A stretch of 62,627 nt of DNA from Candidatus Polarisedimenticolia bacterium (GTDB lineage Bacteria; Acidobacteriota; Polarisedimenticolia; Gp22-AA2), in NCBI GenBank assembly GCA_036001465.1, contig DASYUH010000048.1, positions 1-62,627 on the forward strand. The letters run 5' to 3'. The translations under genes and the position numbers were made by a program. Positions 11,601 to 26,937 of the stretch are shown one piece after another. The stretch's first letter is position 1; every line of letters begins with the position of its first letter. The notes under the pieces were generated by a model. It saw nothing but the letters and a program-made list of their open reading frames with translations. It was not told where the DNA came from and did not search any database.

Positions 11601-12468
11601 AGGCGGTGGCCTGTACCGCGGGTGTCTCGGCTGCAGCGCTCCAAACGTGTGGAGCTTTACCCGAAGTCTTATCCAACCACGGGTCACCGGAATCGCGGTG
11701 CATCCGACAAACCCGAGCATCGCCTATGCGTATGCCGGAAGTTTCTTTTATGCGGTCGACGCTCCGGGACTCCAGGCCGGCATCTATAAGAGCGTAGATC
11801 AGGGGCTAACATGGAGCCTGCTCGACAATAACGGCCTGTCGAATCTGAAGTCGGGCCGGCTCTACTTTTCGGCCATTTCCCCGTACCACACGATTTACGC
11901 CTCGACTGTGGGAGGAGGGGTCTACGAGGGCACGATCAATTGCGGGCCTGTGAGCGAGGGGTTCGCTGATGTCGATGGCGACGGCGTTCCCGATTGCGCC
12001 TTCACCAACATCAATCAGCAGATTGCGATGACGACCGGCAGCATCGTGTCCGGCACGTACTCGAGCCTGAGCTGCTCCTCGACTGCGACCTACGAAGTTT
12101 TGAAGGAGCAAACCTCGGGAAGCCAGCGGAAGATGATCAAGGTGTGGAAGTTCGACAACGTCCCGACTGGAAAAGCGTATGACCTGTGGGTCGAGGGCTT
12201 CAAGACGGTCGCCGGCACGCCGTCCGATAATTTCAACTTCAGCCTGACCACGAAGGCCGCGGGGTCCGCCTGTACTAACAGCGATGGAATCGGCCCGACG
12301 CTTCTCACCGTGTCGAAGACGGGCGACGACAACCAGGCGCAGATTGCTAGCGCAGGCACGATCAACAACCCAGTAGTTTGTCTGAGGGTGCAGGACAGCA
12401 TTCAAGGGAGTGACAACAAGTCGGAGACGCTGACACTGGACCGGGTGTGCCTGCGCGCCCTGCCGTGA
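8695..12468 (+). CDS. Large secreted BNR/GH74-like beta-propeller protein with CBM-like and Cys-rich inserts
   Basis: A 1257-residue exported protein: signal peptide with hydrophobic core about 12-26, GGAGGA about 11 bases before the ATG. The first propeller half opens with ISPVNPNIIILGSDVGG LFRTTDGG, strongly like the first blade of GH74 xyloglucanases, where the Asp of the DxGG motif is catalytic. Asp-box motifs recur (RSADAGATW, KTTDSAASW, KTTDAGATW, VSADRGVNW, KSVDQGLTW). A region about 320-480 (EGWSYLGDSRTVTRVCDAP, ISVWMRA) resembles a CBM4/9-type carbohydrate-binding jelly roll. About 565-620 contains two CGDGVC/CGNNICE type cysteine motifs ending in DC, as seen in myxobacterial and acidobacterial surface proteins. 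The C-terminus is a further Cys-containing beta domain. A polysaccharide-degrading role is plausible but unproven. GC is lower than in the window flanks. Confidence 0.75.
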   Translation: MIRPDWSPKRAYLAIPLMGLLLTASLTRVSSGDQVAWKSIGRGGTGAAIFGAAISPVNPNIIILGSDVGGLFRTTDGGLTWKAVNNAIASPDTVTNYRIWSIAFAPVNGLNPNAQIVYTASPPHFYRSADAGATWTRRALMPGDGDPTVIVVDPTDPNIVYAAGNGYTTGTSRLWKTTDGFAGATASCIDPNNCNVSVGSLVIRPSDRTQLLACTPAGIYKTTDSAASWTKIGGPGGIPAGLPHDSCQRMTVHASGVVYMTLATPNAGGSGWKDPTMWHGGVYKSSTWGDSWTAANGTDGPNLLVNGLGHDEGQFEFLGGSGPAEGWSYLGDSRTVTRVCDAPENLPRTGCAIKMEPIDLGDTSSRGVSKTIPIAVQNRNKLHKISVWMRAPSGQGVTLYVRAHMQNAAGAGIRFPALVGDYIDPIASVVVHSEWRKYQSILYVPDDVAQVALEMYTFFDDGKTWMDEVSIQPIDSLPDVVGAGATPTFANYDLIVVDPADVNTLYVGTAPGGFADDNETGTSGIWKTTDAGATWRRVTRSLYHDNVLDGRGTAPVCGDGVCGGRWEHHAAGGVCPDFSVASTCAADCAISGSSSCCGNNICELAEDADNCFVDCPRYAEAGLPYNESPRQLKDGVTSYAINGISYGVESLAIGNGGTNGKGNAGSQTLSTGGILLTEDGGNRWTEISNDLTVSSTPPYEGWKSRGDTNWVFTYPVVTDAANPQRVYYGDSDNYLNVSFDGGVHFVLEGKFVWPVGGDAVTSMILDPVDPNHAYFGVFNGDDINTLPDGGVIDGHLDPTTNRWTWAKVGVQAPDPGGTDLRGGNVSLVRHSDGTLFAAVGSKGVFRLDGSTWNNTYSGSNWKDSSGQAAIPAGWKIMRLAIDGDDRLYAGAGYNLGDTPPSGETGVWVSADRGVNWTKISSAEMDREPITWITPAGKDGSNRPIVLVGTWFAYRCGWGVPDTPECAGRQGGGLYRGCLGCSAPNVWSFTRSLIQPRVTGIAVHPTNPSIAYAYAGSFFYAVDAPGLQAGIYKSVDQGLTWSLLDNNGLSNLKSGRLYFSAISPYHTIYASTVGGGVYEGTINCGPVSEGFADVDGDGVPDCAFTNINQQIAMTTGSIVSGTYSSLSCSSTATYEVLKEQTSGSQRKMIKVWKFDNVPTGKAYDLWVEGFKTVAGTPSDNFNFSLTTKAAGSACTNSDGIGPTLLTVSKTGDDNQAQIASAGTINNPVVCLRVQDSIQGSDNKSETLTLDRVCLRALP

Positions 12469-12575
12469 GAGGCGCGCCCTCTTACGTGCCGGGGGTACCG
12501 GACCGAGGTGCCGACCGCGCGACGCCCAGCTGCCGCCGACTGGGGTAGTAGAGGAAAAGCCGGCTCATACGAGGT

Positions 12576-13662
12576 TCACGACCGCATGACATACATACGC
12601 GGGCTCGTTCCGGTCCAACGCTTGGATGCGCGCGAGAACGCGGCCGGTTCGGAGAAGCCCAGCAGATAGGCTGTCTCGTTGACTGAAATCTTCTGTGCCA
12701 TCAAGTAGTGGAGTGCCAGCTTGTGGCGCAGCGTGTCCAACACCGCTTCGAAGGTCACGCCCTCCGCTTTCAGCCTTGCGAAAGAGCGTCTGACGGCTGA
12801 GCGCGAGCTGTCCCGCGATCCTGTCCACGCTCGCTTCACCGGTATGCAGGATGGGGATCAACAGCTCTTCGACGCGGCCGCGTATCGACTTCGAGCTTTC
12901 CAGTTTCTTGAGCAGGCCCTCAGCATGGGCGCGCAGTATCTCCGCAAGATATGGGTTCGGGCGCGGCAGCTTCATGGTCAGGAATGCTTCATCGATCAGG
13001 AGGGCGTTCATGTCGCTCTCGAAGAACAGCGGAACACCGAAGATGCGATTGTACTCTGCGCGGTAGGTCGGCTCCGGGTGGGTAAAGCGGATTGCCGTAG
13101 GAAAAGGCACCTTCGGCATATCAGCGATAGAGGCCAACCTCGACCGGGTGGCGCAGACGCAACGCGCGAAACCTGATTCCGTAAGTAGAGGATGCTCGAC
13201 GTAGACGTTGCCTGTGAGTCTCACCCAGACGCCACCATTGTCACGGACGAGTTCAGTGGGTTCCGCGTGGCCGCCGTTGTCAGCATCGAGCGCCAGGCGC
13301 GCGTAGCGGTTCGTCTGAAGGCGCCCCGACTCGATGCTGTCCATGACCCCACCCATCAGCCCGACGATCGAGATGTCCTGTATCCGGACCGCTTCGCCAA
13401 AAAGCAGCGAGAGAGCTGGTTCGTTGCACGATTCGATACCCGCTTCCAGCAGGGCGATGTACTTTGCGAGGGGAATACGGTTGTCTTTGTCTGTGAGATC
13501 CTCAGGACGGGTGTTCGATCGTTCGATCAGCATCCGACGATCAGCGCCTCGCGAGACGGCGAAATCCAAGAGGTCTCTGGGGTACCCGGCGGCTACCGTT
13601 GGATCAGGCACTTTCACCTTCTCCCTGCAACCTGGGGTCAGGTTATTGATACGTCGCGTCAT
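12576..13662 (-). pseudogene. AraC-family regulator with an internal frameshift
   Basis: From ATG 13662 (GGAAGG 8 bases upstream) the frame encodes an AraC-type ligand-binding domain (VAAGYPRDLLDFAVSRGADR, then a long alpha/beta region) and enters the HTH domain at GEASVDRIAGQLALSRQTLFRK. At about 12780 one extra G, in AAGGCTGAAAGC on the coding strand, shifts the frame. The correct continuation, LKAEGVTFEAVLDTLR and then AYLLGFSEPAAFSRASKRW, is found in the next frame and ends at 12576. The shifted frame continues to 12565 with nonsense sequence. With the extra base removed the product would be a full-length regulator with both HTH motifs. Either the gene is recently inactivated or the base is a sequencing or assembly error. 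Confidence 0.85.
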
Positions 13663-13704
13663 GTGGATCGCCTTCCGACCTGTATAGGCTGAGCGTATCA
13701 ATAA
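13643..13704. promoter_or_regulatory. Widely spaced inverted repeat between divergent AraC and DUF4386 genes
   Basis: TTATTGATACG (13643-13653) is perfectly inverted as CGTATCAATAA (13694-13704), with 40 bases between arms and 51 bases centre to centre, about five helical turns. The arms bracket the AraC start codon and lie just before the DUF4386 gene, as expected for a regulator operator acting on both genes. One arm falls inside the first AraC codons. Function is inferred from symmetry and position only. Confidence 0.45.
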
Positions 13705-13737
13705 TGGGAAAGTGGGATCAACACGAGGAGAACCTGT

Positions 13738-14457
13738 ATGAACGCAGCCGTAATGGTGGCCGGGACCAGGGAGACATCACCGCGACTCATGGCCAGGATT
13801 GCAGGTGCCTGTTACTTGATGAACTGTGCTCTTGCGCCCGGTTTCTACGCCAACGCCAGGTGTGTCGTACCTGGCAACGCCGCGGCGACAGCGACCAACA
13901 TGCTCGCGCACGAGGGCCTATACCGGCTGGGGTTCGCCGGAAACCTGGTCGCGATCGCGGCCTATGTCGCCGTCACGGCCTTGTTCTACGAGTTGTTCAG
14001 GCCGGTGAACAGGACGGTCTCTTTTCTCGCTGCGTTGTTCAGCCTCGTGGGGTGCGCTCTTCTGACTGTTGCTTCCCTCTTTCAAGTCGCTCCCTTCGTT
14101 GTCCTGGGAGGCGCACAGTACTTGAGCGTGTTCGCTGTGGAACAGGTGTATGCGCTGGCGCTCGTGCTTCTCAAATTGTACAGTCAGTGCTTCGGCATCA
14201 GTATTGTATTCTTCGGATTCTATTGCCTCCTGATCGGCCACCTCATTTGGAAATCCAGCTTCCTGCCTCGAATCCTGGGCGCTGGAATGGCGCTGGCCGG
14301 TCTGGGTTGGCTAACCTTTCTGTCGCCGCCGTTCGCTCAATCTCTGTCCCCCTACATGTTATCCGGGATCGGAGAGGCAGCGCTGACTCTGTGGCTCCTG
14401 GTGGCCGGCGTGAACGCCGAACGATGGCAAGCGCAGGCCGCTGCATCGGAAGCATAG
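13738..14457 (+). CDS. DUF4386-family membrane protein
   Basis: A 239-residue integral membrane protein with about six hydrophobic segments. The N-terminal ARIAGACYLMNCALAPGF, the GNAAATATNMLAHEGLYR block and the FELFRPVNR-like YELFRPVNRTVS are characteristic of DUF4386 proteins. GAGGAG sits 7 bases before the ATG. It is divergently transcribed from the AraC-type gene and shares its putative operator, so it is probably that regulator's target. The function of DUF4386 is not established; nothing here indicates a substrate. Confidence 0.8.
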   Translation: MNAAVMVAGTRETSPRLMARIAGACYLMNCALAPGFYANARCVVPGNAAATATNMLAHEGLYRLGFAGNLVAIAAYVAVTALFYELFRPVNRTVSFLAALFSLVGCALLTVASLFQVAPFVVLGGAQYLSVFAVEQVYALALVLLKLYSQCFGISIVFFGFYCLLIGHLIWKSSFLPRILGAGMALAGLGWLTFLSPPFAQSLSPYMLSGIGEAALTLWLLVAGVNAERWQAQAAASEA

Positions 14458-15467: not shown

Positions 15468-16673
15468 TCACCCCGCGCGATGCATGCGCTGCCGGACTGG
15501 GGTCGGTGGATCACCGGCCGCCGGTATCCCGCCTCTGGGCTCCCAGGCCATGACGCTCCGGCCGATGAGCACAGACAACACTCCGAGGAGTGCCGCGGCA
15601 TTCACGAAGCAGAAGAAGTAGGGGACGGACAACAATCGCGACCTGCCCGGCTGGGTCTCTCTCAGCCTCCAGCCAAGGAAGGCCAGAACATAAAACAGAA
15701 CCTGGCATCCCCATGTGCTGACACAAACCGGATGGGTCCCCAGCAACAGGACGTTCGAGGAGAACAGGACGATCAGCCAGAACGGAGCCAGGTGGCGCAG
15801 GAGCTTGTGCGACAGCAGTTTGATTGAGTAAAAACCGGACAGCCAGAGATCTCTTCCCAGGCCCAGAAGCGCACGCACGCTGTGGTTGGTGATGCGCACC
15901 TTTCTGAGAAACTCCTGCCGTCCGCGGGCTGGAGCATCTTCATACGTAACCGCCCGGGCTTCGTAAACGAGTCGATGACCGTTGAGCACGACCCTCGTCG
16001 AGATCGCCATGTCATCCGCGACAACGGGATCGTCGATTGGAACATAGAGGCTCCTCCTGATGGCATAGAGTGAGCCATCGGCCGCGATAATGCTCCCCGT
16101 TCGACTCTCGAGACCTTTGACGGCCTTGTCGTACTGCCAGTAGAGGCTTTCCTCCCGCCCTGTCACATCGTCGCTGTCTGCAGGCCGATACCTCTGGTTT
16201 CCGCAGACTCCTCCGACCTCGGGATCGCCAAGATCCTCGACCAGGGCGCGCAGGCTCTCCGTCTCCAGCATCGAGTTCGCGTCCGTGAAGACGATGACTT
16301 CCCCCGTCGCGGCCAAGACACCATCGTTGAGGGCCTCGGCCTTGCCTCGACGCGGGAGGTCGAGAACGCGGATCCCCTGGGAGGCGTACCTCCGTGCAAT
16401 GCTCACGGTCCGATCGGTCGATCCATCGGACGCGATCACGATTTCGAGCCGATTCCTTGGATAGGTCAGCTCGAGAGTGTTGCGCAGCTTTCGCTCGATG
16501 ATTTCTTCTTCATTGTAGGCAGCGATGACCACGCTCACTGAAGGGAATCGAGAGCCTTTTCGTACGGGCCACGGTGCAAGGATGCCGATCAGCATGAGCA
16601 TCAGGGGATAACCGAAATAGATGTAGAACAGCAGGCCCAGACTCGAGAGGAAGATCAACTCGACCAGAATCAA
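15468..16673 (-). CDS. Family 2 glycosyltransferase, membrane-bound
   Basis: A 401-residue processive-type GT2. An N-terminal membrane segment (LIFLSSLGLLFYIYFGYPL) is followed by the GT-A domain with SVVIAAYNEEEII, ASDGSTD (nucleotide-binding), FTDANS (DxD-like, metal binding) and DDMAIS (catalytic-base region). Two or three C-terminal membrane helices follow. The canonical QxxRW is replaced by a KVRITNHSVRAL segment. The start TTG 16673 is chosen because AGAGG precedes it and it lies 16 bases after the flippase stop; frames upstream are non-coding. It is the last gene of the minus-strand exopolysaccharide operon and probably extends the repeat unit on the cytoplasmic face. Acceptor and donor sugars are unknown. 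Confidence 0.85.
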   Translation of the reverse strand: MILVELIFLSSLGLLFYIYFGYPLMLMLIGILAPWPVRKGSRFPSVSVVIAAYNEEEIIERKLRNTLELTYPRNRLEIVIASDGSTDRTVSIARRYASQGIRVLDLPRRGKAEALNDGVLAATGEVIVFTDANSMLETESLRALVEDLGDPEVGGVCGNQRYRPADSDDVTGREESLYWQYDKAVKGLESRTGSIIAADGSLYAIRRSLYVPIDDPVVADDMAISTRVVLNGHRLVYEARAVTYEDAPARGRQEFLRKVRITNHSVRALLGLGRDLWLSGFYSIKLLSHKLLRHLAPFWLIVLFSSNVLLLGTHPVCVSTWGCQVLFYVLAFLGWRLRETQPGRSRLLSVPYFFCFVNAAALLGVLSVLIGRSVMAWEPRGGIPAAGDPPTPVRQRMHRAG

Positions 16674-16689
16674 GCAAGGACCTCTTTTC

Positions 16690-18189
16690 TCATGGTGCGT
16701 TCCTCGACAGAGAGTGAGCCGCGAGGTGGATGCGCCTCGGTGATGAAGAAAGCAGGAGACTCCACGCGTGACGGCACAAGCCCGGGGCGACTGTTCGCAG
16801 CACCGCAAGATAGATCGTTAGGCCGAGCAGGATTGTGCCAGCCAACCCTCCGACACTGTCCACGGGTCCTGCCATTCTTTCGAAAACCAGCAGGGCCGCT
16901 CCCATGACAGCCGAGGCCGAGACCGACGGCGCCAGAGCGCGCAAGACCTGCCGTAGTTTGAGGCCCACGCGAGCGCAGGCGTATCCGAGGCTCAGTGCGG
17001 CGGACGGCATCGTCACCGCCGCCATCGACCACGCGACCATCGGCCCGCTCACCCTGGCCGCCATGTAGAGCACAGGCAGGAGAACGATGCCGCGGAGAGC
17101 CCCCAGCCAAGCCACTAACGACGGCTTCCCGACGGCCTTGAGAACGTCGCCGCCTTGGGTCCCGAGGGATCTCGAAGCAGCGTAGACCGCAAGGCCTTGC
17201 ACGATTGAGACCGCGGGGGTCCATGCCGTGCCGAAAAGCACGCGCACGAGGGCGTCGGCAAGGACGATGAGTCCCGTCGCGGCCGGAATCGTGGTGAGGG
17301 AGACGAACTGCAGGAACCGGATGTAGCTCCGGGCGACTCCATTCTCATCCCGCACCTTCGATAGAGCGGGGAACGTCACCTGAGTCACGGCCCAATTCTG
17401 CAGGTGAATGGTCGTCTCGACGATCTTGTTGGCCACGTGGTAAAACCCAAGCGTCGATGTCCCCAACATCCTTCCGACCATCATCAGGTCGATATGATGA
17501 AGGATGCTGGACACCACGTTGATCCAGACGATGGGCCGGCCGTACCGCAGCATGGGTCGGATCAGATCAATCGGAACGCCCCATCGCGGCCTCCACGACG
17601 TGATCCTCCACATCCCCACCGTCCATATCGTCAACCCCGCCAGGTGTCCCGCCACGAGGCTCCAAACTCCGAAGCCTTGTAGGGCCAGGAGGATGGCCAC
17701 GAGGGCCTTTGTCACCGTGAGGGACATCTCAGGGAGGATCCGAGCCTTGAAACCAAGATCCTTGCGGGACAAGGCGTCGTGGGTGTTGCCCACGGACCGA
17801 ATCAGGAAACTGACCGACAGGACCCGCAGAACGCTGGTGCCACCTGGCTGATGGAAGAACGCAGCGACGAGAGGTGCCAGCGAGATCGACAGACCGAACC
17901 AAACCGCGCCGGCCAGAAGATTCAACAAGAAGGTGATCTGAGCTGCATCGTGTCTCCGGTCCGGCCAGTAGATCAATGCCGTACCCGTTCCAAGATCCCC
18001 GATGGCGTCCAGGTATATGAAGAAGACAAGAGCGAAAGCCATCATCCCGAACTCGTGGGGAGAGAGGAACCGCGCGAGGACCACCATCGAGAGCAGCGAA
18101 ACGAGCCTGCTTCCCGCCATCGCGGTGAAGGACCACAGGACTCCCCGGAACGTCCGGATCGCGGCTTCGCCAGAGGCGCGGTTCACCAT
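16690..18189 (-). CDS. Wzx-type polysaccharide flippase (WzxC/PST family)
   Basis: A 499-residue protein with about 12-14 hydrophobic helices, matching the lipopolysaccharide biosynthesis/PST exporter family of the MOP superfamily. Recognisable family sequences include GSRLVSLLSMVVLARFLSP near the N-terminus, SRKDLGFK in the fifth/sixth segment region, and the central HHIDLMMVGRMLG and LGFYHVANK. It would translocate undecaprenyl-linked repeat units across the inner membrane. Its ATG overlaps the stop of the upstream GT4-kinase gene by 7 bases, so translation is coupled. The adjacent Wzy and Wzz complete a Wzx/Wzy-dependent pathway. Confidence 0.88.
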   Translation of the reverse strand: MVNRASGEAAIRTFRGVLWSFTAMAGSRLVSLLSMVVLARFLSPHEFGMMAFALVFFIYLDAIGDLGTGTALIYWPDRRHDAAQITFLLNLLAGAVWFGLSISLAPLVAAFFHQPGGTSVLRVLSVSFLIRSVGNTHDALSRKDLGFKARILPEMSLTVTKALVAILLALQGFGVWSLVAGHLAGLTIWTVGMWRITSWRPRWGVPIDLIRPMLRYGRPIVWINVVSSILHHIDLMMVGRMLGTSTLGFYHVANKIVETTIHLQNWAVTQVTFPALSKVRDENGVARSYIRFLQFVSLTTIPAATGLIVLADALVRVLFGTAWTPAVSIVQGLAVYAASRSLGTQGGDVLKAVGKPSLVAWLGALRGIVLLPVLYMAARVSGPMVAWSMAAVTMPSAALSLGYACARVGLKLRQVLRALAPSVSASAVMGAALLVFERMAGPVDSVGGLAGTILLGLTIYLAVLRTVAPGLCRHAWSLLLSSSPRRIHLAAHSLSRNAP

Positions 18190-20423
18190 CTGCCTTTCCC
18201 CTGGAGAGCCTTATCCAGATAGGCAACCTGCCAGACGCGCAACATCCGGTTCGACGACTCTCGGAAACGCATGTTGGCGAGCAGCTCCAGGCCTTTCACC
18301 ATCCGCCCCAGGTGAAGGGCCGCCGGATCGGCGCGCGCCCCATCGAGATATCCTGTCAGGAACGCGCCGGCCAGAGTCGGAACTCGTCTCCTCGAGAACG
18401 GGTAGCTGAAAAACAGCTCGAGGTGTACCAGGAGGCACGCCACGTCCTCGAACGGAAGGCCTTCGGAATAGCCCTCGAAGTCGATGACGTTCACCTGGTT
18501 CTTCCCGACGAAAATGTTGCCGGGCCAGAAGTCCCCGTGGACGCCGCAAGGCACGAGGGAGGGGCTGGAGAGACGACCGGAGTGAGTCTCGAACTCACGT
18601 CGGATGTCCTCCGCCGTGATGGAGAGACCCAAGGTCCTTCTGCAGACTGACAGGTGCTCGAGGGATCTGTCCATCAGGACCTGGATCCGGTCGAAGGGAT
18701 CACCGCCAGCCGGGTTATGCCGCTGGAGGCTGTTCAGCCATTCTCCGCAGAGCCTGAGAGAGGGTTCGGCGAGCCCTGCGTCCCAGTTTTTCCGGAGATC
18801 TGTGAGAAGCCTGGTCAGGGGAATGCCGTCACATGTCTCCATCACCAGTGTCGCTTCTCTTTGGTCCAGGTGCAGCACACGCGGAACTCCCAGCTTGCCG
18901 GAGATCTGATGCTGCAGTCGTGAGAGGATTTCATACTCACGCCTGGCACGGACAGAGGCGGCGCGCGACTGATTTTCGCGGGTTCTATGATGCTTGATCA
19001 CCACCTCACGCACCTGGCCCGCGTCCGACACGAGAATTCCGGCGATCCAGGAATCCCTCCGGCATTGTTCCCAGCGGAGCCCGAGACGAGTGCCACGGAT
19101 GCCTGGAGAGTCCAGATGCCGGAGCCGTTCTTTCGCCTCGGACCGGATGGGCGATCGATATCGGTCCATCAAGTCGAGCAGGCTCCCGACCGATCGCTCC
19201 AGGCTGTGCCGCATGACCACCCTTCTCCGACCTGCTTCGCCCAGCCGCCGCGCGAGCCGCGGATCCCCGCAGACCCTTTTGAGGGCACCGACGAGGCCTT
19301 GAACATCGGCCGGCTCCACCAGGACGCCCGTCATCCCGTCTTCCACAAGCTCCGGTATCCCTGACAGCCGGGAGGTGATCACGGGACGCCGGCACGCCAT
19401 GGCCTCCATCAGGGCCACCGGTATGCCCTCCATCTGACCGTCCGCCGCGACGACACTCGGCAAGACGAAAACCGTACAGGTCGCCATGAGCTTCGCGACC
19501 TCAGTTTGCGGAAGAGAACCGCGCAAGTACACGCGGTCCTTCAGGCGGCAGCATGCGATTTGTTCCTGGATGGCGGATTTCAACGGCCCATCGCCCACGA
19601 TGTCGCAGACGAAGTCCCATCCCTCGGCCTTCAGTCTCCTGCAGGTCTCGATCAGAACGCTCAACCCCTTGTAGGGCTTGAGGGCCGCGACGCAGAGAAT
19701 GCGTGGCTGAGGATGCGACGGGGGTGTATACGCTGGCTCAAATTGATCCGCGGGGATGCCGACTCGGACCAGCGGAAGTTTCTCGCGAGGGATCGAGGGG
19801 TCCAGACGGCGCAGGAAGTCTTGATTGAAACGGGAGATGACTCTCACGAACGAAGCGCCCCGGATCTTTTCCTTCAACATGGCCCGATGAACGAAGATGT
19901 CGTGGGCATGGGTTGTGAAGCTGTAGGGCAGCCCGGTGATGTCGGAGACGATCTTCACGGCCAGGGCCGGATGTGTGGCGTAGTGCGCGTGCAGATGGCT
20001 CACGCCCTCCTCAGCGAGCCTCTCCGCCAGATGGACAGATTTCGGGAAAATGCCCAGGGCTCCGAAGAAGAGGTTGGCGCTTTTCGAGCAACCCAGCAAG
20101 ATGTGGGCGATAAGTGAAAAATAGCGCAGCGGTCGACGTCGGAGCAGCCGCAAGTTCGAGGCGATGATCTGCCGGGACAGGAAGGGTGTGTACTCGGCCC
20201 GTTCGATCCAGGGTCGGGCCTCGTCATGAACCACTACGGCCCGTTCCCTCAAGAGCGGGATCAAACGGACCGGCTGACCTTGCCGCTCCAGCTCGATCAT
20301 CTCCCTGAGGATGAACGTCTCCGTGATCAAAGGGAACCTGGAAAGAAAGATGGCGATCGGCGAGCGTATTTGTGGGGCGGCCTTGGCGTCGAGAGCGCGG
20401 TTCGTCAGAGCAGAAGCGTTCAT
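18183..20423 (-). CDS. GT4 glycosyltransferase fused to an aminoglycoside-phosphotransferase-like kinase
   Basis: A 746-residue two-domain protein. Residues 1 to about 425 are a GT-B family 4 glycosyltransferase: THAHDIF (about 171), HAHYATHP (145), KPYKGLSVLIE (249), VGDGP (276) and EGIPVALMEAMACRRPVI (332; the E-x7-E donor-binding motif). Residues about 440-746 form an APH/choline-kinase-like domain with an ATP lysine (VVIKHH, K476), the Brenner-type catalytic loop HGDFWPGN (629-636) and a metal-binding VIDFEG (646-651). The fusion is uncommon; the kinase could phosphorylate the sugar acceptor, the nascent glycan or a lipid carrier. The start is ATG 20423, overlapping the Wzy stop as ATGA. 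The in-frame extension upstream is not coding. Confidence 0.85.
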   Translation of the reverse strand: MNASALTNRALDAKAAPQIRSPIAIFLSRFPLITETFILREMIELERQGQPVRLIPLLRERAVVVHDEARPWIERAEYTPFLSRQIIASNLRLLRRRPLRYFSLIAHILLGCSKSANLFFGALGIFPKSVHLAERLAEEGVSHLHAHYATHPALAVKIVSDITGLPYSFTTHAHDIFVHRAMLKEKIRGASFVRVISRFNQDFLRRLDPSIPREKLPLVRVGIPADQFEPAYTPPSHPQPRILCVAALKPYKGLSVLIETCRRLKAEGWDFVCDIVGDGPLKSAIQEQIACCRLKDRVYLRGSLPQTEVAKLMATCTVFVLPSVVAADGQMEGIPVALMEAMACRRPVITSRLSGIPELVEDGMTGVLVEPADVQGLVGALKRVCGDPRLARRLGEAGRRRVVMRHSLERSVGSLLDLMDRYRSPIRSEAKERLRHLDSPGIRGTRLGLRWEQCRRDSWIAGILVSDAGQVREVVIKHHRTRENQSRAASVRARREYEILSRLQHQISGKLGVPRVLHLDQREATLVMETCDGIPLTRLLTDLRKNWDAGLAEPSLRLCGEWLNSLQRHNPAGGDPFDRIQVLMDRSLEHLSVCRRTLGLSITAEDIRREFETHSGRLSSPSLVPCGVHGDFWPGNIFVGKNQVNVIDFEGYSEGLPFEDVACLLVHLELFFSYPFSRRRVPTLAGAFLTGYLDGARADPAALHLGRMVKGLELLANMRFRESSNRMLRVWQVAYLDKALQGKGRW

Positions 20424-21928
20424 TCGCGAGCATCCTTCTCTTGCGCGACATTCGATAGCGCCGCCACCAGGGCCAGGATCAGCCAGAAATACCTGGGATA
20501 CTGCAGGTGGAGAAAAATGCTCGAGACCAGAAAGCCGACGCACGAGACCTGCATGGCCCGGGCAAGGTCCGCGGTCTCCTGATCCCCTGCCTTCAACAGC
20601 CTTTTGCGGGCTCCGGAGAGCTGAAAGAAAGTGGCGGCGAGGACGATTGAGAACGCCATCAACCCTGGAACTCCGGTCTCGGTTCCGATCTCGAGATACA
20701 GGTTGTGCGGGTAATGAAGTTGGGCCGGATCGTCATAGTCACGGGCCGCGGAACCCACCTCATCCGCGAACTTGTCGAAATGAGTCGTAAAATTGCCTGC
20801 ACCCACGCCCAGAATGAAATGCGTCTCAAAGAGACGCCAGCCCGCCCTTGCGAGAAGCTTCCTATTTTCGAATGAGCTGTCGGGATGCAGCACACCTCCG
20901 CTTCCGGGCAGGATCTGGGGAATGGTGGTCATGCGACGTTTGAAGCCTCCCGGCACGAGGAGCAGAAGGACGAGCAACACCGCGATCCCAAGGATCAGCT
21001 TGCTCCAGTCATGCCTGTGCAGCGCCACCCACAACACCAAGACGACGCCGAGGGAAAGCGCCCCTCCGCGCGAATACGAAAAGATAATTCCGGCGCCGAT
21101 GAGCATTGCGGAAGCGCAGATGACGACCCGCTTGAGCCGTCCCGCCTTGCGCGGGGAAGCGAACAGACCCAGCGGCAGTGCAAGGAGGAGAATTTGCGCA
21201 AAGAAGTTTGGATCACCAAGGGGCCCGGCAACTCGAGGCTCGAAGGTCGTATCGTAGATCTGGGCATACTTGACTCGAGCCAACCCGCCCCATTCCCAAC
21301 CGTACTGCCCGGTCAAGACCTGCCACACTCCAAGGCCGGCCAGTAGAGCCGCAGCGCCGAAAACAGCCCACAGTGCCCATTTCAGCTCCCTCCGGTCTCT
21401 TGCCAGCAAGACCACCAGGCAATGCAGCGCCAGAGCTTTGGAGAGCATCAGGCAGCGCTGGTCGGCCAGGAGCTGGTCGCTGGCCCTGATCGTCGAAAAG
21501 AAGACGATGAGAGTGTAGCCAAAGAGTGAAACCGTCAATGAGTTCCCAAGACGAGCCATCCCGATCCTCGGGTCGCGGTGAATCCACGCCGTCGCCGCCA
21601 CCGGGAGGATCGCAAACTGGAGAACCGAAGGCAAAGAGTGAAAGCGAACGAGGAGCTGGGATAGATTCAGGAAGATGAAAACGACGAGCGAAATCAGCGC
21701 GAGCCTGGGGTATTTGAGCACCGTGACGCCGAGCGCGACAAGAATCGCGAGCGCCAACAAATTCGTCCCCGTCGGCGAAAAATGGACCTCGAGCAGCAGC
21801 GCGTCGAGTGTGGCGAGATAACCGATGAGAACCGTCAGAAGGACGATGCCGAGCGTCCCGATGATTCCGAGGCCTCCGCGCGGGAATTCCAGGGGCCCCC
21901 CCGACGACGCGTGGCCGCGCACAGTCAC
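20420..21928 (-). CDS. O-antigen ligase / Wzy-type polymerase
   Basis: A 502-residue polytopic membrane protein with at least ten hydrophobic segments and a long periplasmic loop near the C-terminus. That loop contains GVGAGNFTTHF and HYPHNLYLEIGTETGVPGL, the Wzy_C (O-antigen ligase/polymerase) signature; the YPHNLYLE histidine is conserved in the family. It polymerises repeat units or ligates the glycan in the periplasm; sequence alone does not separate the two. Gene order beside Wzz and Wzx favours polymerase. The start is GTG 21928, overlapping the Wzz stop as GTGA. Confidence 0.87.
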   Translation of the reverse strand: MTVRGHASSGGPLEFPRGGLGIIGTLGIVLLTVLIGYLATLDALLLEVHFSPTGTNLLALAILVALGVTVLKYPRLALISLVVFIFLNLSQLLVRFHSLPSVLQFAILPVAATAWIHRDPRIGMARLGNSLTVSLFGYTLIVFFSTIRASDQLLADQRCLMLSKALALHCLVVLLARDRRELKWALWAVFGAAALLAGLGVWQVLTGQYGWEWGGLARVKYAQIYDTTFEPRVAGPLGDPNFFAQILLLALPLGLFASPRKAGRLKRVVICASAMLIGAGIIFSYSRGGALSLGVVLVLWVALHRHDWSKLILGIAVLLVLLLLVPGGFKRRMTTIPQILPGSGGVLHPDSSFENRKLLARAGWRLFETHFILGVGAGNFTTHFDKFADEVGSAARDYDDPAQLHYPHNLYLEIGTETGVPGLMAFSIVLAATFFQLSGARKRLLKAGDQETADLARAMQVSCVGFLVSSIFLHLQYPRYFWLILALVAALSNVAQEKDARE

Positions 21929-22527
21929 TCTCTCCGAAGCGTGCCGATCTTTTCGACGAGGAGCGCTGAAAGGATACCCAGGAAACAGCTGAGGACTCCT
22001 GAAGCAACGTAGTTCCTCAGCGGATTCGGATAGACCGCACTCTCGGCCGGCGTGGCTTCCTCCACAACCTCGAGCTCGAAAATACGGTAAAGCCTCTCCG
22101 CTTCGGCGCGGGTGAGACGGGCAACATTGTTGGCGACAGTCGCCGCCTGAAGCGGGTCCGGCCCCCGGACCTGCACCTGGATCATGTTCCGGTTGGGGAC
22201 CACCTGACCCTCGATGGCAAAGTCGCGGAGTTCCTCTGCACTGATCCCCAGCGCGCGGGCAGCCGATTGTCGGATCTCCTGGGTTGAGGCGAGCCGCGCG
22301 AAGGTTGCCGGGACGCTGCGACGCTCCAGGGTCTCCAGGCTTCGGTTGATGTCGGCGGAGGAAGACAGTCCGCTGCGTGGTTTCAGAACCATCAGATTAC
22401 TGGATTCATAGATTCGTCTTTGTCGCATCGTGAGAATTACCGTAGAGCCAAGAGCCAGGGCGATGACGAGGATCGGAATCCACCATCTCTTGACCAGTGC
22501 ACGAATAATTCTGTCGGTATCGTTCAT
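21925..22527 (-). CDS. Wzz-type polysaccharide chain-length protein
   Basis: A 200-residue protein with the Wzz layout: a cytoplasmic basic start, TM1 (about 15-35, WWIPILVIALALGSTVILTM), a periplasmic alpha/beta domain with coiled-coil character, and TM2 near the C-terminus preceded by a Pro-containing segment (YPNPLRNYVASG). It is shorter than E. coli Wzz (about 325 residues) and has no cytoplasmic tyrosine-kinase domain, unlike Wzc. It would set modal chain length with Wzy. The start is ATG 22527; the frame open to 22665 has no coding look and overlaps the preceding gene. It lies 62 bases downstream of the ExoY-like gene. Confidence 0.83.
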   Translation of the reverse strand: MNDTDRIIRALVKRWWIPILVIALALGSTVILTMRQRRIYESSNLMVLKPRSGLSSSADINRSLETLERRSVPATFARLASTQEIRQSAARALGISAEELRDFAIEGQVVPNRNMIQVQVRGPDPLQAATVANNVARLTRAEAERLYRIFELEVVEEATPAESAVYPNPLRNYVASGVLSCFLGILSALLVEKIGTLRRE

Positions 22528-22589
22528 CGGTCCCACCCCCCATCCATCGGACCCGAGAATCCTGACGTTGCGGAATCCCCGACGGCCGT

Positions 22590-23279
22590 CTAGTACGCTC
22601 CTCTGGCTCGGAGCACCACCGGCACGGTTCTCAGAAGGATCTGCAGGTCGAACCAGAAGCTCCATTCGTGGACATAAGCGAGGTCATAGTTCAGCCGATC
22701 TCGATCGCTGCAGTCATTGCGTCCACTGACTTGCCACAAGCCGGTCATGCCTGGGCGCACGGTGAAGCGACGCCCGTACCGAGCAAACGGAAAGTGCTTG
22801 ACCTCGCTGATCAGGAGAGGGCGCGGCCCCACGAGGCTCATGTCTCCTCGCAGCACGTTATAGAGCTGCGGCAGCTCATCGACACTGTACTTTCGGAGCC
22901 ATCGTCCGAGTCCCGTGACCCTCGGGTCGTCTTCAACCTTGAAAAAGGTCCGCGCCGGCCGCCCAGCCGCCAGCATCGTTTCGAGCTTCTCCGCCCCTAC
23001 CCGCATCGTGCGCAATTTGTACATGGAGAAGATCCGACGCGCGTAGCCGAGCCTTCTCTGGACGAAGATGACCGGTCCCGGGCTGGTGAGCCAGATGCCC
23101 AGCGCGGCCACAAGCAGGAGAGGCGAGAGCAGCGCGAAGAGAAGGACCGATACCACGACATCGACCTGTCTCTTTGCGACAGACTTCATGGGGTCCGCTT
23201 TGCTCTCGGCGTGAGATCGGTAGAGTATCCATCTGCTTTTGTGAAGTTGAGCCGATACCAAGGCACCGGTGTGGGACAT
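22590..23279 (-). CDS. ExoY/PglC-type initiating polyprenyl sugar-1-phosphate transferase
   Basis: A 229-residue short-form sugar transferase (bacterial sugar transferase family, monotopic PGT). One re-entrant hydrophobic helix (VDVVVSVLLFALLSPLLLVA) is followed by the conserved core: FVQRRLGY, MYKLRTM, DDPRVTGLGRWLRK, SVDELPQLYNVLRGDMSLVG (catalytic DE), GPRPLL and RPGMTGLWQVSGRN. It transfers a sugar-1-phosphate from UDP-sugar to undecaprenyl phosphate, the first committed step of repeat-unit assembly. A strong GGAGGA lies 8 bases before the ATG. It lacks the long N-terminal membrane region of WbaP. As first gene of the minus-strand operon it probably follows the promoter in 23280-23733. 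Confidence 0.92.
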   Translation of the reverse strand: MSHTGALVSAQLHKSRWILYRSHAESKADPMKSVAKRQVDVVVSVLLFALLSPLLLVAALGIWLTSPGPVIFVQRRLGYARRIFSMYKLRTMRVGAEKLETMLAAGRPARTFFKVEDDPRVTGLGRWLRKYSVDELPQLYNVLRGDMSLVGPRPLLISEVKHFPFARYGRRFTVRPGMTGLWQVSGRNDCSDRDRLNYDLAYVHEWSFWFDLQILLRTVPVVLRARGAY

Positions 23280-23733
23280 CGGAGTCTCCTCCCTGCTCCG
23301 TCAGTTCCTCATCACCGACACCTCGCCGCGTGATGCGGAATCGAGCACACCCTTTGCAGGAACTGCGGACTGATTTTGCAAATGCCGGGCCACGGTCGGC
23401 TCGGAATTCGATCCTGAGACCTGGCTTGGCGCAGCTCAATGTCGGAAGGGACTTTCGCCTGCCCGACCGCTCACCCCTACCACCGTGGGGTTCAGTTGGA
23501 ACCGATCCGAGTCGTTCGGAATACGGGAACGGAATTCAAGTCCGTAATCCGGATGACATCCATGTCTTCTGAACAGACGGCTCCCCCTGGCCTTGTGCTC
23601 TTCGGGATACTGTCCGCAAGGGTTCCCGGGTCAAGGGAATCGTGAATGTCGCTTCGCGCGCAGGGCACATCGTTTGCACGACTTCAATCCAGAGGAGTTT
23701 GTCCTGGGGCCCGGGGAGGTGCGCGGAGGGGGC
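23280..23733. other. Divergent intergenic region of the exopolysaccharide cluster
   Basis: About 450 bases between the minus-strand ExoY-like operon and the plus-strand barrel/GT4 operon. It must contain both promoters, but I could not find a confident sigma-70 or sigma-54 (TGGC-N8-TTGC) match by eye. Short open frames across it have no coding character. Confidence 0.5.
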
Positions 23734-24642
23734 ATGCGAGTCCGTCTGAGCTGGTTCGCGATCCTGGTGTTGATGGGGACGCTACCGTCGCTGGCGGCCG
23801 AGAGTGGAGGGCGCCCGAAAAGGTGGTCGTTCGAGCTTGGAACGATGATCGGTTATCACAGCAACGTGTTCGCCATGCCCAACACCAACGGACAGCCGAC
23901 GGTCGCCGCGTCGATCTCGACTCTTTATCTGAACGGCGATCTGGGGACCCGCCACACGGGCATGTACTTCGGTGCTCGCGGGAGCCTCTACACGGGGGAG
24001 GCCGACATTTCTGGCGAGCGGTGGGGCCTGCTCGGGTTGATGTTGAAGAGTCCTGCGACGCGCATCGCTGCCGAGTATGAGCGTTCCCCGACAAAAGTCT
24101 ATGTTGAAGAGGCGGGTGAAGACTTCTTCGAGCTCGAGAGAGTCCAGCTCAAGGCGCGTCTTGGCGAGTCCACGAAAGTGTGGATGGAGACGCGTTACGG
24201 CCGGGAAGAATGGACCTTCGATTCGGCTCAGTTGGGCCAGAACGCGGAGGTTCGAGTCGCGTCGGCCACGCTTCGGTTTCCCATTGCACGGCAACTGGGG
24301 CTTCGCGCTTCCTACGATCGGGAGTGGAAGGTTGCGGATGATCCGCAGTACAGCCGCGATGGCGAGGGTCGGTCGATTGCGATCGAAGCAGAGCCATCGA
24401 AGCGTATCAGGCTGTTCGGTCGGTATATGGTTCGAACACGCAGTTATCAGGATGCCCCGGTGGGCAGCGACAATTTCGCTCGAGAGGACACGATCGAGGA
24501 CGCGACGCTCACCCTCCGTGTGGAAGTGGGAAAGAACTGGGGCATTCGCATCGAGGATTCCTATAAACGCGCGACGTCAAACCTGCCGGACCGGAATTAC
24601 CACACGATTCTTGCAAAGGCAGGAATCTTCCTCACCTTCTAA
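23734..24642 (+). CDS. Putative outer-membrane beta-barrel of the exopolysaccharide cluster
   Basis: A 302-residue exported protein. The signal peptide covers about residues 1-23 (hydrophobic WFAILVLMGTLPSLAA). The mature part alternates polar and hydrophobic residues in short strands joined by Gly/Asn turns and ends AGIFLTF, with a C-terminal phenylalanine as in Bam-inserted barrels. GGAGG precedes ATG 23734; the frame open from 23593 lacks coding look. By position, directly upstream of two GT4 genes and divergent from the Wzx/Wzy operon, it could be the glycan's outer-membrane conduit or a surface anchor. No Wza-like export protein is present in the window. The barrel assignment is from pattern, not from a recognised family. 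Confidence 0.65.
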   Translation: MRVRLSWFAILVLMGTLPSLAAESGGRPKRWSFELGTMIGYHSNVFAMPNTNGQPTVAASISTLYLNGDLGTRHTGMYFGARGSLYTGEADISGERWGLLGLMLKSPATRIAAEYERSPTKVYVEEAGEDFFELERVQLKARLGESTKVWMETRYGREEWTFDSAQLGQNAEVRVASATLRFPIARQLGLRASYDREWKVADDPQYSRDGEGRSIAIEAEPSKRIRLFGRYMVRTRSYQDAPVGSDNFAREDTIEDATLTLRVEVGKNWGIRIEDSYKRATSNLPDRNYHTILAKAGIFLTF

Positions 24643-24643
24643 G

Positions 24644-25771
24644 ATGCGGCCTCTGATCCTCATGAGCTCGTTGGCCGACGGAGGGGCGGAGCACGTGACC
24701 GTCACGCTGGTCGGAGCCCTGCTGGCACGCGGCGTCGGCGCGACCGTATGCACCGTCACGAATCGAGGGGACGGTAGTCCAGCGGAACTGCTGCGGGAGG
24801 CAGGCATTCCGCGCGTGGATCTCGGAGCCCGGCGGCTCGCCGACCCGTCGGCTTTCGTTCGGTACTTGAAGCTCTTAAGATCTCGACGGTTCGACCTCGT
24901 TCATGCTCACGGCCAGGATGCCTCGATCCTGGCCGCGGCGGCTCGGCCCCTCGTGAATACCCCTCTGATCCTCACCCGTCACGTGCTCGAGGAGCCCCGC
25001 GCGAACTGGCGGCAGCGGCTAAGGGCTCGGGCCGCGCTGGCAGCCGCCCGACGCGCCGATGCGCTCATCGCTGTCTCTCGGGAGGCCGCCGACGCATGGG
25101 CCAGGCTGGCGGGAATCTCACGAGCATCGGTTCGAGTTCTTTACAACGGGATCGACGTGATGCGCTACCGACGCACAGGACTGTCTTCTCAATGCGCGGC
25201 GATCCGTAAGGCTCTGGGGTTCGGCTCGGACGAGAGGCTTCTTCTGATGGCTTCCGTCCTGCGCGAGGGGAAGGGGCATGAAGTGATGTTCCAGGCCTTG
25301 CCCTTGATCCGGTCGAGGGTTCCCTGTACGTTTCTGCTGGTCGCCGGCAGCGGCAACCAGGAAACTGCCCTTCGGCGACAGGCGGCCGAACTCGGCGAAG
25401 CCGTGCGCTTCCTCGGGTCTCGACAGGATGTGCCTGAACTCCTCGCCGCCTGCGATGTGGCGGTTCTCCCCTCTCACATGGACGCCCTGCCAACGTTCCT
25501 CCTGGAGGCCGCAGCGGCCCGACGGCCGGCCGTGGCCAGCCGAGTTGGAGGCATTCCAGAGATCATCGAACATGGTCGTACGGGTCTTCTGGTGCCACAG
25601 GGTGCACCGGGCCCTCTGGCAGACGCCATTCTCGAGATCCTGCTCAACCCCTCGCGCTCCCGGGAGATGGGGGCGGCGGCGGGGCGAGCCGTGACGCGGT
25701 TTTCGCTGCATGAGTCCGTCGAGAAGACACTTTCCGTCTGGAATGAGGTGGTGCAAGCTTGCCGGCACTGA
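24644..25771 (+). CDS. Family 4 glycosyltransferase
   Basis: A 375-residue GT-B fold enzyme, complete in length. The N-terminal domain contains LADGGAEHVTVTLVGAL (the GGAE acceptor-side motif) and FDLVHAHGQDA. The C-terminal donor domain contains VLREGKGHEVMFQALPLI, FLGSRQDVPELLAACDVAVL and LPTFLLEAAAARRPAVASRVGGIPE, the last being the E-x7-E-equivalent region with one acidic residue substituted. It starts one base after the barrel gene's stop, so the two are co-transcribed and probably translationally coupled. It adds a sugar to the lipid-linked repeat unit in the cytoplasm; specificity is unknown. Confidence 0.85.
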   Translation: MRPLILMSSLADGGAEHVTVTLVGALLARGVGATVCTVTNRGDGSPAELLREAGIPRVDLGARRLADPSAFVRYLKLLRSRRFDLVHAHGQDASILAAAARPLVNTPLILTRHVLEEPRANWRQRLRARAALAAARRADALIAVSREAADAWARLAGISRASVRVLYNGIDVMRYRRTGLSSQCAAIRKALGFGSDERLLLMASVLREGKGHEVMFQALPLIRSRVPCTFLLVAGSGNQETALRRQAAELGEAVRFLGSRQDVPELLAACDVAVLPSHMDALPTFLLEAAAARRPAVASRVGGIPEIIEHGRTGLLVPQGAPGPLADAILEILLNPSRSREMGAAAGRAVTRFSLHESVEKTLSVWNEVVQACRH

Positions 25772-26937
25772 AAATAACCTGGAGCTTGCCGGTCAGGGGT
25801 GAAAGTCTCTCCGGAGGTCGCGGCGATCTCGTGCGCGCGCGCAATCTGGTAGCCGCCCTTCAACGTGCCGGCCACGAAGTACGAGTCGTCCAGGCCGTTG
25901 AGGGAATCGGATCGGAGCTCATGGTCGCCGGCTACCGGCGCGTCCTGAACCGTCTTCTGCCCCGGAAGCCGGCCCTGATACTGCGCGACCTTGGCCGCAT
26001 CGCGCACGGTCACCTGCACGGCCTACGGGTCGTGCGTGCGGCTCATGAACACCACGCCGATCTGGTGATTGAAACCCAGGTCGGGTTCGCCTCATCCAAC
26101 TGCTTTCTCTCCCCAAGAACCGGCACGCCGCTCATCCTGGACGACTGCTCTCCCAGCAGCGAAGAACGAACTCTCGGATCGGGTCTCCCCGGCCTCGCGG
26201 CCGCCACCCTGAGGCGCCAGGCTCAATTCGCCCGGGTCGTCGTCGCGGTGTCATCGGCCGCCCGCGGGGCGCTCGTGGCCGAAGGGATCCCGGAGGACAA
26301 GGTGTGGGTGGTGCCCAACGGTGTGGATGTCGATGCATTCAAACGTTCTCGGCACCCCGGCGTGCGCCAGGAGGCCCGCAGCCGCTTTGGATTCCGTGAC
26401 GACGAGATCATCCTGGGCTTTTCCGGCTCCTTCCAATCGTGGCACCGCGCCGAGCTGCTCGTCGAGGCCGTAGCCAGGCTGCGGCATCACTATCCAGTCC
26501 GTGGGATGTTCGTCGGCGACGGCCCCACCTACGCGCGGGCCCTGGCGCTGGCTCTAGAGAGAGGAGTTGACGATCGCGTGATCGCACTCGGTTCGGTCGC
26601 CCCGGAAGAGATTCCGATGGTGCTGAGCGCATGGGACGTTGGGCTGCTGCCGGGATCGAACTTCTACGGTCACCCGATGAAACTCGTCGAGTATGCGGCG
26701 GCCGGACTCGCGTGCGTCGCCCCCGATCTCCCGGCCATTCGCGAGGAGCTCCGGGCGGATGAAACGGGCCTGCTCTTCCGGGAGGGCGATCTCGAATCTC
26801 TGTGCGCCGTTCTCGCGCTGCTGATCACGGACCACTCGCTCAGAAAGCGCCTGGGGCAGGCCGGTCGGGAATCCGCATTCAGGAGTGCTTCGTGGGACCA
26901 ACGAGCGCGAAGTCTTCTCCGCCCGCTGGGGTTGTAG
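25759..26937 (+). CDS. Family 4 glycosyltransferase
   Basis: A 392-residue GT-B enzyme. Family features: SGGRGDLVRARNLVAALQRAGHEV at the N-terminus, VVPNGVDVDAF in the interdomain region, LGFSGSFQSWHRAELLVEAV, MFVGDGP and GLLPGSNFYGHPMKLVEYAAAGLACVAPD (donor-binding loop). The start TTG 25759 overlaps the previous gene by 13 bases and has GAGGTG at a suitable distance; no ATG with a ribosome site fits. It is the last gene of the plus-strand exopolysaccharide unit, ending 174 bases before repeat C. Confidence 0.84.
   Translation: MPALKITWSLPVRGESLSGGRGDLVRARNLVAALQRAGHEVRVVQAVEGIGSELMVAGYRRVLNRLLPRKPALILRDLGRIAHGHLHGLRVVRAAHEHHADLVIETQVGFASSNCFLSPRTGTPLILDDCSPSSEERTLGSGLPGLAAATLRRQAQFARVVVAVSSAARGALVAEGIPEDKVWVVPNGVDVDAFKRSRHPGVRQEARSRFGFRDDEIILGFSGSFQSWHRAELLVEAVARLRHHYPVRGMFVGDGPTYARALALALERGVDDRVIALGSVAPEEIPMVLSAWDVGLLPGSNFYGHPMKLVEYAAAGLACVAPDLPAIREELRADETGLLFREGDLESLCAVLALLITDHSLRKRLGQAGRESAFRSASWDQRARSLLRPLGL

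Follow-up and report, generated by a model that had tools for sequence, protein, structure and literature searches.

We describe a gene in a 62,627-nucleotide stretch of DNA from Candidatus Polarisedimenticolia bacterium (phylum Acidobacteriota; assembly GCA_036001465.1, contig DASYUH010000048.1, positions 1 to 62,627; hereafter the window) that encodes a genuine fusion of a family 4 glycosyltransferase (GT4) and a kinase domain of the aminoglycoside phosphotransferase (APH) fold (18183..20423, minus strand). We propose, with a confidence that goes about halfway, that the protein is a bifunctional cytosolic enzyme of the Wzx/Wzy pathway, whose active kinase would phosphorylate the lipid-linked repeat unit that its GT4 half extends. 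In this scheme, the product of a Bac_transf gene would start an undecaprenyl-diphosphate-linked repeat unit, the GT4 half would add one sugar to it at the cytosolic face, and the APH half, as an ATP- and Mg-dependent kinase, would phosphorylate a hydroxyl of the same lipid-linked unit, on either the added sugar or its neighbour. Phosphorylation would precede flipping by Wzx and polymerisation by Wzy, and every repeat of the finished polymer would bear a phosphate, as opposed to one cap at the chain end.

The fusion occupies a single open reading frame (ORF) that opens with an ATG at 20423 and runs for 746 amino acids with no internal stop; the ORF listing sets the start of the frame further upstream, at a GTG at 20543. 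The ATG overlaps the stop codon of the Wzy gene as ATGA, and the stop of the fusion overlaps the start of the Wzx gene. The GT4 half (about residues 1-425; 19149..20423, minus strand) carries the Pfam domain Glycos_transf_1 (PF00534) at residues 237-401 (E=2.3e-35; 122.1 bits, cut-off 26.4), while the kinase half (about residues 445-746; 18186..19091, minus strand) carries PF01636 (APH) at residues 472-698 (E=3.8e-17; 63.3 bits, cut-off 23.2). A first-pass annotation of this DNA had described a GT4 running into an APH-fold domain with the motifs HGDFWPGN and VIDFEG, and the profile search corroborates it, both domains lying in one ORF and the motifs at residues 629-636 and 646-651. The same annotation had raised the prospect of separate genes joined by an assembly error, and such a chimeric ORF is excluded because the fusion recurs in six genomes. 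Hydropathy over 19 residues peaks at 1.86, within the GT4 half, which makes it likely that the enzyme is cytosolic or membrane-associated.

Five canonical kinase residues are invariant in all six fusions, namely Lys477 (18993..18995), which we take to be the ATP-binding lysine, Glu496 (18936..18938), presumably its partner, Asp631 and Asn636 in the catalytic loop HGDFWPGN (18516..18539), and Asp648 in the metal-binding loop VIDFEG (18471..18488; all minus strand). The H, G, D, P and N of the first loop are likewise invariant, and the second loop is identical throughout. The APH halves of the other fusions share 23-34% identity with that of the window, and the six-way alignment holds 26 invariant columns among 285 gapless ones; if invariant columns were placed at random, the chance that all five residues would be invariant is about 4e-6. 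Loss of the catalytic Asp or Asn in close homologues, named in the first-pass annotation as grounds for refutation, was found in none of the six fusions and occurs in some distant unfused relatives. This invariance argues against a reading in which the APH half is a non-kinase module that regulates, scaffolds or senses ATP for the GT4, which we regard as improbable even though unfused APH relatives can be degenerate at the catalytic Asp (HGS and HGT in locus L069, LGE in L066; L and G labels for loci and genomes are ours) and related GT4s exist without an APH half (L020, L021).

The AlphaFold2 model of the APH half, built from 23 sequences, has both lobes ordered (predicted local distance difference test score, pLDDT, 88.5; predicted template-modelling score, pTM, 0.87) and indicates that the domain is a complete, two-lobe APH-fold kinase. 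Compared with APH-fold kinases in the Protein Data Bank (PDB), it matches maltokinase best (Z 22.1, root-mean-square deviation (rmsd) 2.8, 268 residues aligned), together with 4-hydroxytryptamine kinase (Z 21.9, rmsd 4.5, 282 aligned), methylthioribose kinase (Z 20.8, rmsd 4.2, 280 aligned) and glucosamine kinase (Z 20.7, rmsd 4.1, 284 aligned). Maltokinase, methylthioribose kinase and glucosamine kinase thus have the two-lobe fold in common with the APH half (Z 20.7-22.1) at 15-16% identity. Because matches no more than 1 Z apart count as ties, structural rank does not separate substrate classes, and the modelled fold fits sugar kinases and other small-molecule kinases equally well. We know of no such APH-fold sugar or small-molecule kinase that forms part of a glycosyltransferase.

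The chief rival to our proposal takes up this ambiguity: the APH half would be a small-molecule or free-sugar kinase making a soluble precursor, either a sugar-1-phosphate or an alcohol or amino acid that carries phosphate and is afterwards moved onto the glycan, and would be fused to the GT4 only for supply or co-localisation. The nearest folds do act on small molecules in free form (maltokinase, PsiK, methylthioribose kinase, glucosamine kinase), and the four PDB sequence matches are corramycin phosphotransferase, 4-hydroxytryptamine kinase (twice) and amicoumacin kinase. Yet the 19 window proteins scanned with Pfam, a part of the window's ORFs, include no nucleotidyltransferase or phospho-alcohol transferase, and we consider this rival rather unlikely; nor did these 19 proteins include a LicA-type context (choline transport, LicC, LicD). 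Known pairings that fit a soluble precursor are the fusions of trehalose synthase (TreS) with maltokinase, described as a sugar enzyme joined to an APH-type kinase (PMC6509496), and Pseudomonas aeruginosa FgtA, for which one account predicts a glycosyltransferase and a TagF-like phosphotransferase, the proposed donor of the Clostridioides difficile counterpart being CDP-threonine (PMC10714395).

Other assignments of the kinase half fared poorly. An antibiotic-resistance role is not supported, the only resistance model listed, APH(2'')-IIa, scoring 15.7 bits against a cut-off of 625. Nor is a role in phage defence, PADLOC returning only two PD-T4-6 models over residues 470-542 (E=0.0045 and 0.0067); the PHROGs matches, to a glycosyltransferase family and a radical-SAM family, both fall in the GT4 half. 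A plasmid-borne origin was likewise rejected, as none of the 1,497 matching plasmid records holds 80% of the query in one place. The genome of the window has one other near-full-length APH match (G000:C109:33360-34118; 70.2 bits, in a 652-aa frame), and eleven more that are short.

On the sugar-adding side, the GT4 half resembles EpsE- and WcaL-type enzymes, matching both models below their curated cut-offs (NF041876, 204.7 bits over residues 23-411, cut-off 400; TIGR04005, 135.7 bits, cut-off 537.6); both models, of 389 and 406 positions, lack the kinase half of the window fusion. The EX7E motif of GT4 glycosyltransferases reads EGIPVALME in the window, its first position being E in four of the six fusions and D in two. 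The full-length AlphaFold2 model of the fusion, from four sequences, is weak (pLDDT 65.5); compared with known structures for the GT-B fold of a GT4, it matches many GT4 structures at Z 19.9-23.6, mostly with an rmsd of 8-11.

The five further fusions are 36-39% identical to that of the window and come from other Acidobacteriota genomes: L009 (Acidobacteria metagenome-assembled genome (MAG) Zod_Metabat.240, whose contig equals G149/G297 by the same coordinates), L026/L065 (G102), L068/L030 (G150, the genome of Acidobacteria MAG RYN_27), L063 (G280) and L064 (G401). In a survey of the phylum, 37 of 396 genomes gave some match at E<=1e-3 and five carried the fusion (the window genome, G102, G297, G280 and G401); the search recovered two fusions absent from its profile, at 3.7e-81 and 2.2e-49. 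Four genomes of the same genus gave no match, one of them being 75% and another 88% complete. The presence of the fusion is patchy across families, which suggests operon transfer or loss.

All six fusions share an operon setting. Genes for Bac_transf, Wzz and Wzy precede the fusion at every locus, and Wzx follows directly in five of the six, the exception being L063, where a GT4 gene takes its place. A standalone APH gene stands after Wzx in three of the six (L009, L064 and L065, with one small gene between in L064); the window operon has none there, and the contig of L068 stops inside Wzx. Two joined ORFs were seen among the loci examined: in L063, Wzz and Wzy form one ORF of 827 aa (10620-13103), and in L013 a GT2 is joined to Wzx in one ORF of 917 aa (11275-14028).

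In the window, the genes on the minus strand comprise the initiating sugar-phosphate transferase Bac_transf (22590..23279; PF02397, E=1.3e-64), a Wzz-like chain-length protein (21925..22665; PF02706, E=1.9e-4, and TIGR01006, 8.8e-9, both below cut-off), a polymerase of the Wzy/O-antigen-ligase type (20420..21928; PF04932, E=1.4e-21), the fusion, a Wzx-type flippase (16690..18189; PF13440, E=7.9e-72) and a GT2 glycosyltransferase (15468..16808; PF00535, E=1.2e-29). By these domain matches the locus is a Wzx/Wzy-type exopolysaccharide operon, in agreement with the setting that the first-pass annotation had assigned to the fusion. Its further suggestion, a phosphorylating, sugar-adding enzyme that acts on the glycan, stands as far as the intact kinase site within the fusion is concerned, the glycan acceptor being our interpretation.

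Where the phosphate would go is a matter of pathway order. In the Wzx/Wzy pathway, polymerisation comes after flipping; a cytosolic kinase would therefore act before the unit is flipped, and a phosphate on each repeat is predicted, which in this pathway is likelier than the glycan cap that the first-pass annotation had envisaged. A kinase that caps or terminates chain growth does have a precedent in WbdD of Escherichia coli O9a, which, like the enzyme proposed here, acts on a polyprenol-linked surface glycan, and is described as phosphorylating the terminal mannose of O9a and then methylating the phosphate, halting polymerisation (PMC3482155). However, WbdD pairs a eukaryotic-protein-kinase-like fold with a methyltransferase and caps chains in an ABC-transporter pathway (PMC3482155), whereas the window fusion has no methyltransferase domain by Pfam and lies in a Wzx/Wzy-type operon, where flipping comes before polymerisation and which also encodes a Wzz-like protein for length control. 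We regard a WbdD-like role as highly improbable.

The same pairing of domains also appears without fusion. Among 35 Acidobacteriota stretches, which are all those with standalone APH places in the survey minus the second APHs of two fusion operons, eight place a GT4 gene at most about 2 kb from a standalone APH gene (L069, L071, L072, L086, L088, L089, L103 and L104); L067, with a GT4 7.4 kb away, is not counted. These counts are descriptive, made without a random-locus control, with neighbours labelled by BLAST against 22 reference sequences and on stretches that differ in length and in some cases stop at a contig end. In L069 (3-5316), a GT4 gene is followed by four APH genes, the last broken by the contig end, and in L072 (1-3627) by one APH gene and, in a different frame, a further APH match. 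L086 (560-11192) combines an ABC exporter, a sulfotransferase, two GT4s, two APHs, a GT28-like protein and an alginate-export-type protein, while L103 (985-9995) and L104 (676-7807) hold ABC exporters with GT4 and APH genes, L103 also encoding a heparinase II/III-like protein. L069, L072, L086, L103 and L104 are all glycan-type clusters in which a GT4 is accompanied by at least two standalone APH genes. Two tandem APH-fold genes of L069 (685-3068), with HGS and HGT for HGD, adjoin a relative that keeps HGD and, judging from the replaced Asp, likely encode pseudokinases; Gln replaces the catalytic-loop Asn in APHs of L069 and L072.

In Chloroflexota, the 12 best-scoring places of the search, a chosen sample, include seven stretches with exopolysaccharide-type genes (glycosyltransferase, Bac_transf or Wzx-like): L110, L112, L114, L115, L116, L119 and L120, of which L115 and L116 are near-copies. 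Two further Chloroflexota loci, L020 and L021, contain comparable genes, with this GT4 immediately behind Bac_transf, but lack the APH half, which makes the kinase look like a step added on.

Beyond Acidobacteriota, no fusion-type APH domain was found in 1,301 sampled genomes from five other phyla (251, 288, 398, 68 and 296), searches in which only the first 5-8 candidates were scored in many genomes and which had no positive control of their own. The match threshold was 1e-15 in four of the five phyla and E<=1e-3 in Chloroflexota, the phylum of G158 (Ardenticatenales MAG), where 81 of 251 genomes gave a match, the best at 1.2e-23 in a 363-aa frame; seven weaker matches lay in frames above 650 aa, long frames being mostly unchecked for GT4. 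At 1e-15, no match was found in the phyla of G160 (Chthoniobacterales MAG; 0 of 288 genomes), G152 (Lautropia; 0 of 398) and G154 (Hydrogenedentes MAG; 0 of 68), and one genome of 296 matched in the phylum of G161 (Patulibacter MAG; 1.7e-18, in a 374-aa frame). Long matches in Lautropia had raised the suspicion of the same fusion there, which was rejected, the proteins being GT4-GT4 doubles with two GT4 domains per chain (L011, L012, L014, L015 and L019). A Chthoniobacterales GT4 of 661 aa (L023, 2684-4669) has about 260 C-terminal residues that match no Pfam family at E<=0.01.

A GT4 tree of 23 rows requires the fused label to change at least twice, and unfused GT4s of L010 and L063, both from genomes that also carry a fusion, nest inside the fused group. 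An APH tree of 31 rows, among them one mis-framed row to be disregarded (L065_2nd, 74 aa), places the six fused domains in two supported groups and does not reject a single clade (approximately unbiased test, p-AU 0.475). Since the fused GT4s do not form one clade, the trees allow either two fusion events or one event followed by losses.

Comparable two-part systems are known elsewhere. In the spore coat of Bacillus, a GT4-type protein and an APH-like protein, CotSA and CotS, are encoded together as separate genes; the window kinase scores 14.8 bits against the CotS model TIGR02906 (cut-off 172.7) and 11.6 bits against the TreS_Cterm maltokinase model TIGR02457 (cut-off 375.05). The trehalose synthase-maltokinase TreS:Pep2 resembles the window protein in joining a PF01636-type kinase to a carbohydrate-active enzyme, and is described as part of a pathway toward a capsule glucan (PMC6509496). 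It differs in its first half, since TreS converts trehalose and maltose into each other and does not belong to GT4. FgtA (PA1091) is likewise predicted to combine a glycosyltransferase domain with a phosphotransferase domain in one chain, but the latter is reported to align with the TagF-like CD0244, for which a CDP-activated donor is presumed, and the target is a flagellin glycan (PMC10714395). Looser parallels are an aminoglycoside phosphotransferase gene reported to adjoin the Akkermansia cps1 locus (PMC13343947) and a phage protein mentioned as having glycosyltransferase and phosphotransferase domains and as uncharacterised (PMC12838424). Among the matches listed in the open-licence literature, we found no description of a GT4-APH fusion.

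The fusion, its conservation, its operon, the intact active-site residues and the predicted fold are what the analysis shows; kinase activity, the glycan as acceptor and the sequence of events are inferred from them. The proposal of a kinase acting on the lipid-linked unit draws on the constant position of all six fusions behind Bac_transf, Wzz and Wzy, on the five invariant kinase residues amid otherwise divergent APH halves, on the full APH fold of the model and the sugar kinases among its nearest structures, on the recurrence of the GT4-APH association, both unfused and as a second, standalone APH in half of the fusion operons, and on the Chloroflexota loci whose GT4 has no APH half. Several points weigh against it. 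A tryptamine kinase ranks level with the sugar kinases in the fold search, and the product of a co-operonic kinase could just as well be a soluble precursor. Unfused GT4s are nested among the fused ones, which do not group as a single clade. Because catalytic residues are lost in some unfused relatives, not every member of the wider group need be a kinase. Finally, a passage in a survey of carbohydrate loci reports no significant general co-localisation of glycosyltransferases and kinases (PMC5702140).

The flanks of the operon hold further genes. Beyond Bac_transf, two GT4 genes lie on the plus strand, one at 24077..25771, whose start is probably downstream, and one at 25759..26937, respectively 45% and 46% identical to GT4b and GT4c of L009. 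Also on the plus strand, an ORF at 23593..24642 has no Pfam match and weakly resembles a gene late in the L009 locus (12196-13341), with 31.7% identity over 63 residues (E=1.1e-5); that it or its L009 counterpart is an outer-membrane protein is a guess. Farther along, 27321-32017 encodes a protein of 1186 aa with AMP-binding, FkbM methyltransferase, phosphopantetheine-site and thioesterase domains, adjoining an acyl-CoA dehydrogenase.

The usual annotation of an APH-fold protein is a kinase for antibiotic resistance or for a metabolite. The fusion and its operon context tie such a protein to polysaccharide assembly and make a glycan acceptor directly testable in an abundant, poorly characterised phylum. 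More tentatively, and short of an even chance in our judgement, APH-fold kinases may form a widespread and mostly overlooked class of enzymes that modify glycans in surface-polysaccharide clusters of Acidobacteriota and Chloroflexota, of both Wzx/Wzy and ABC-exporter type, with GT4-APH as a one-protein machine that adds a sugar to, and phosphorylates, each lipid-linked repeat. If the proposed role of the fusion is right, sugar addition and phosphorylation of a surface glycan may occur in the same step, annotations of 'aminoglycoside phosphotransferase' within glycan clusters would need re-examination, and these exopolysaccharides would gain negative charge and the capacity to bind metals from their phosphorylated repeats.

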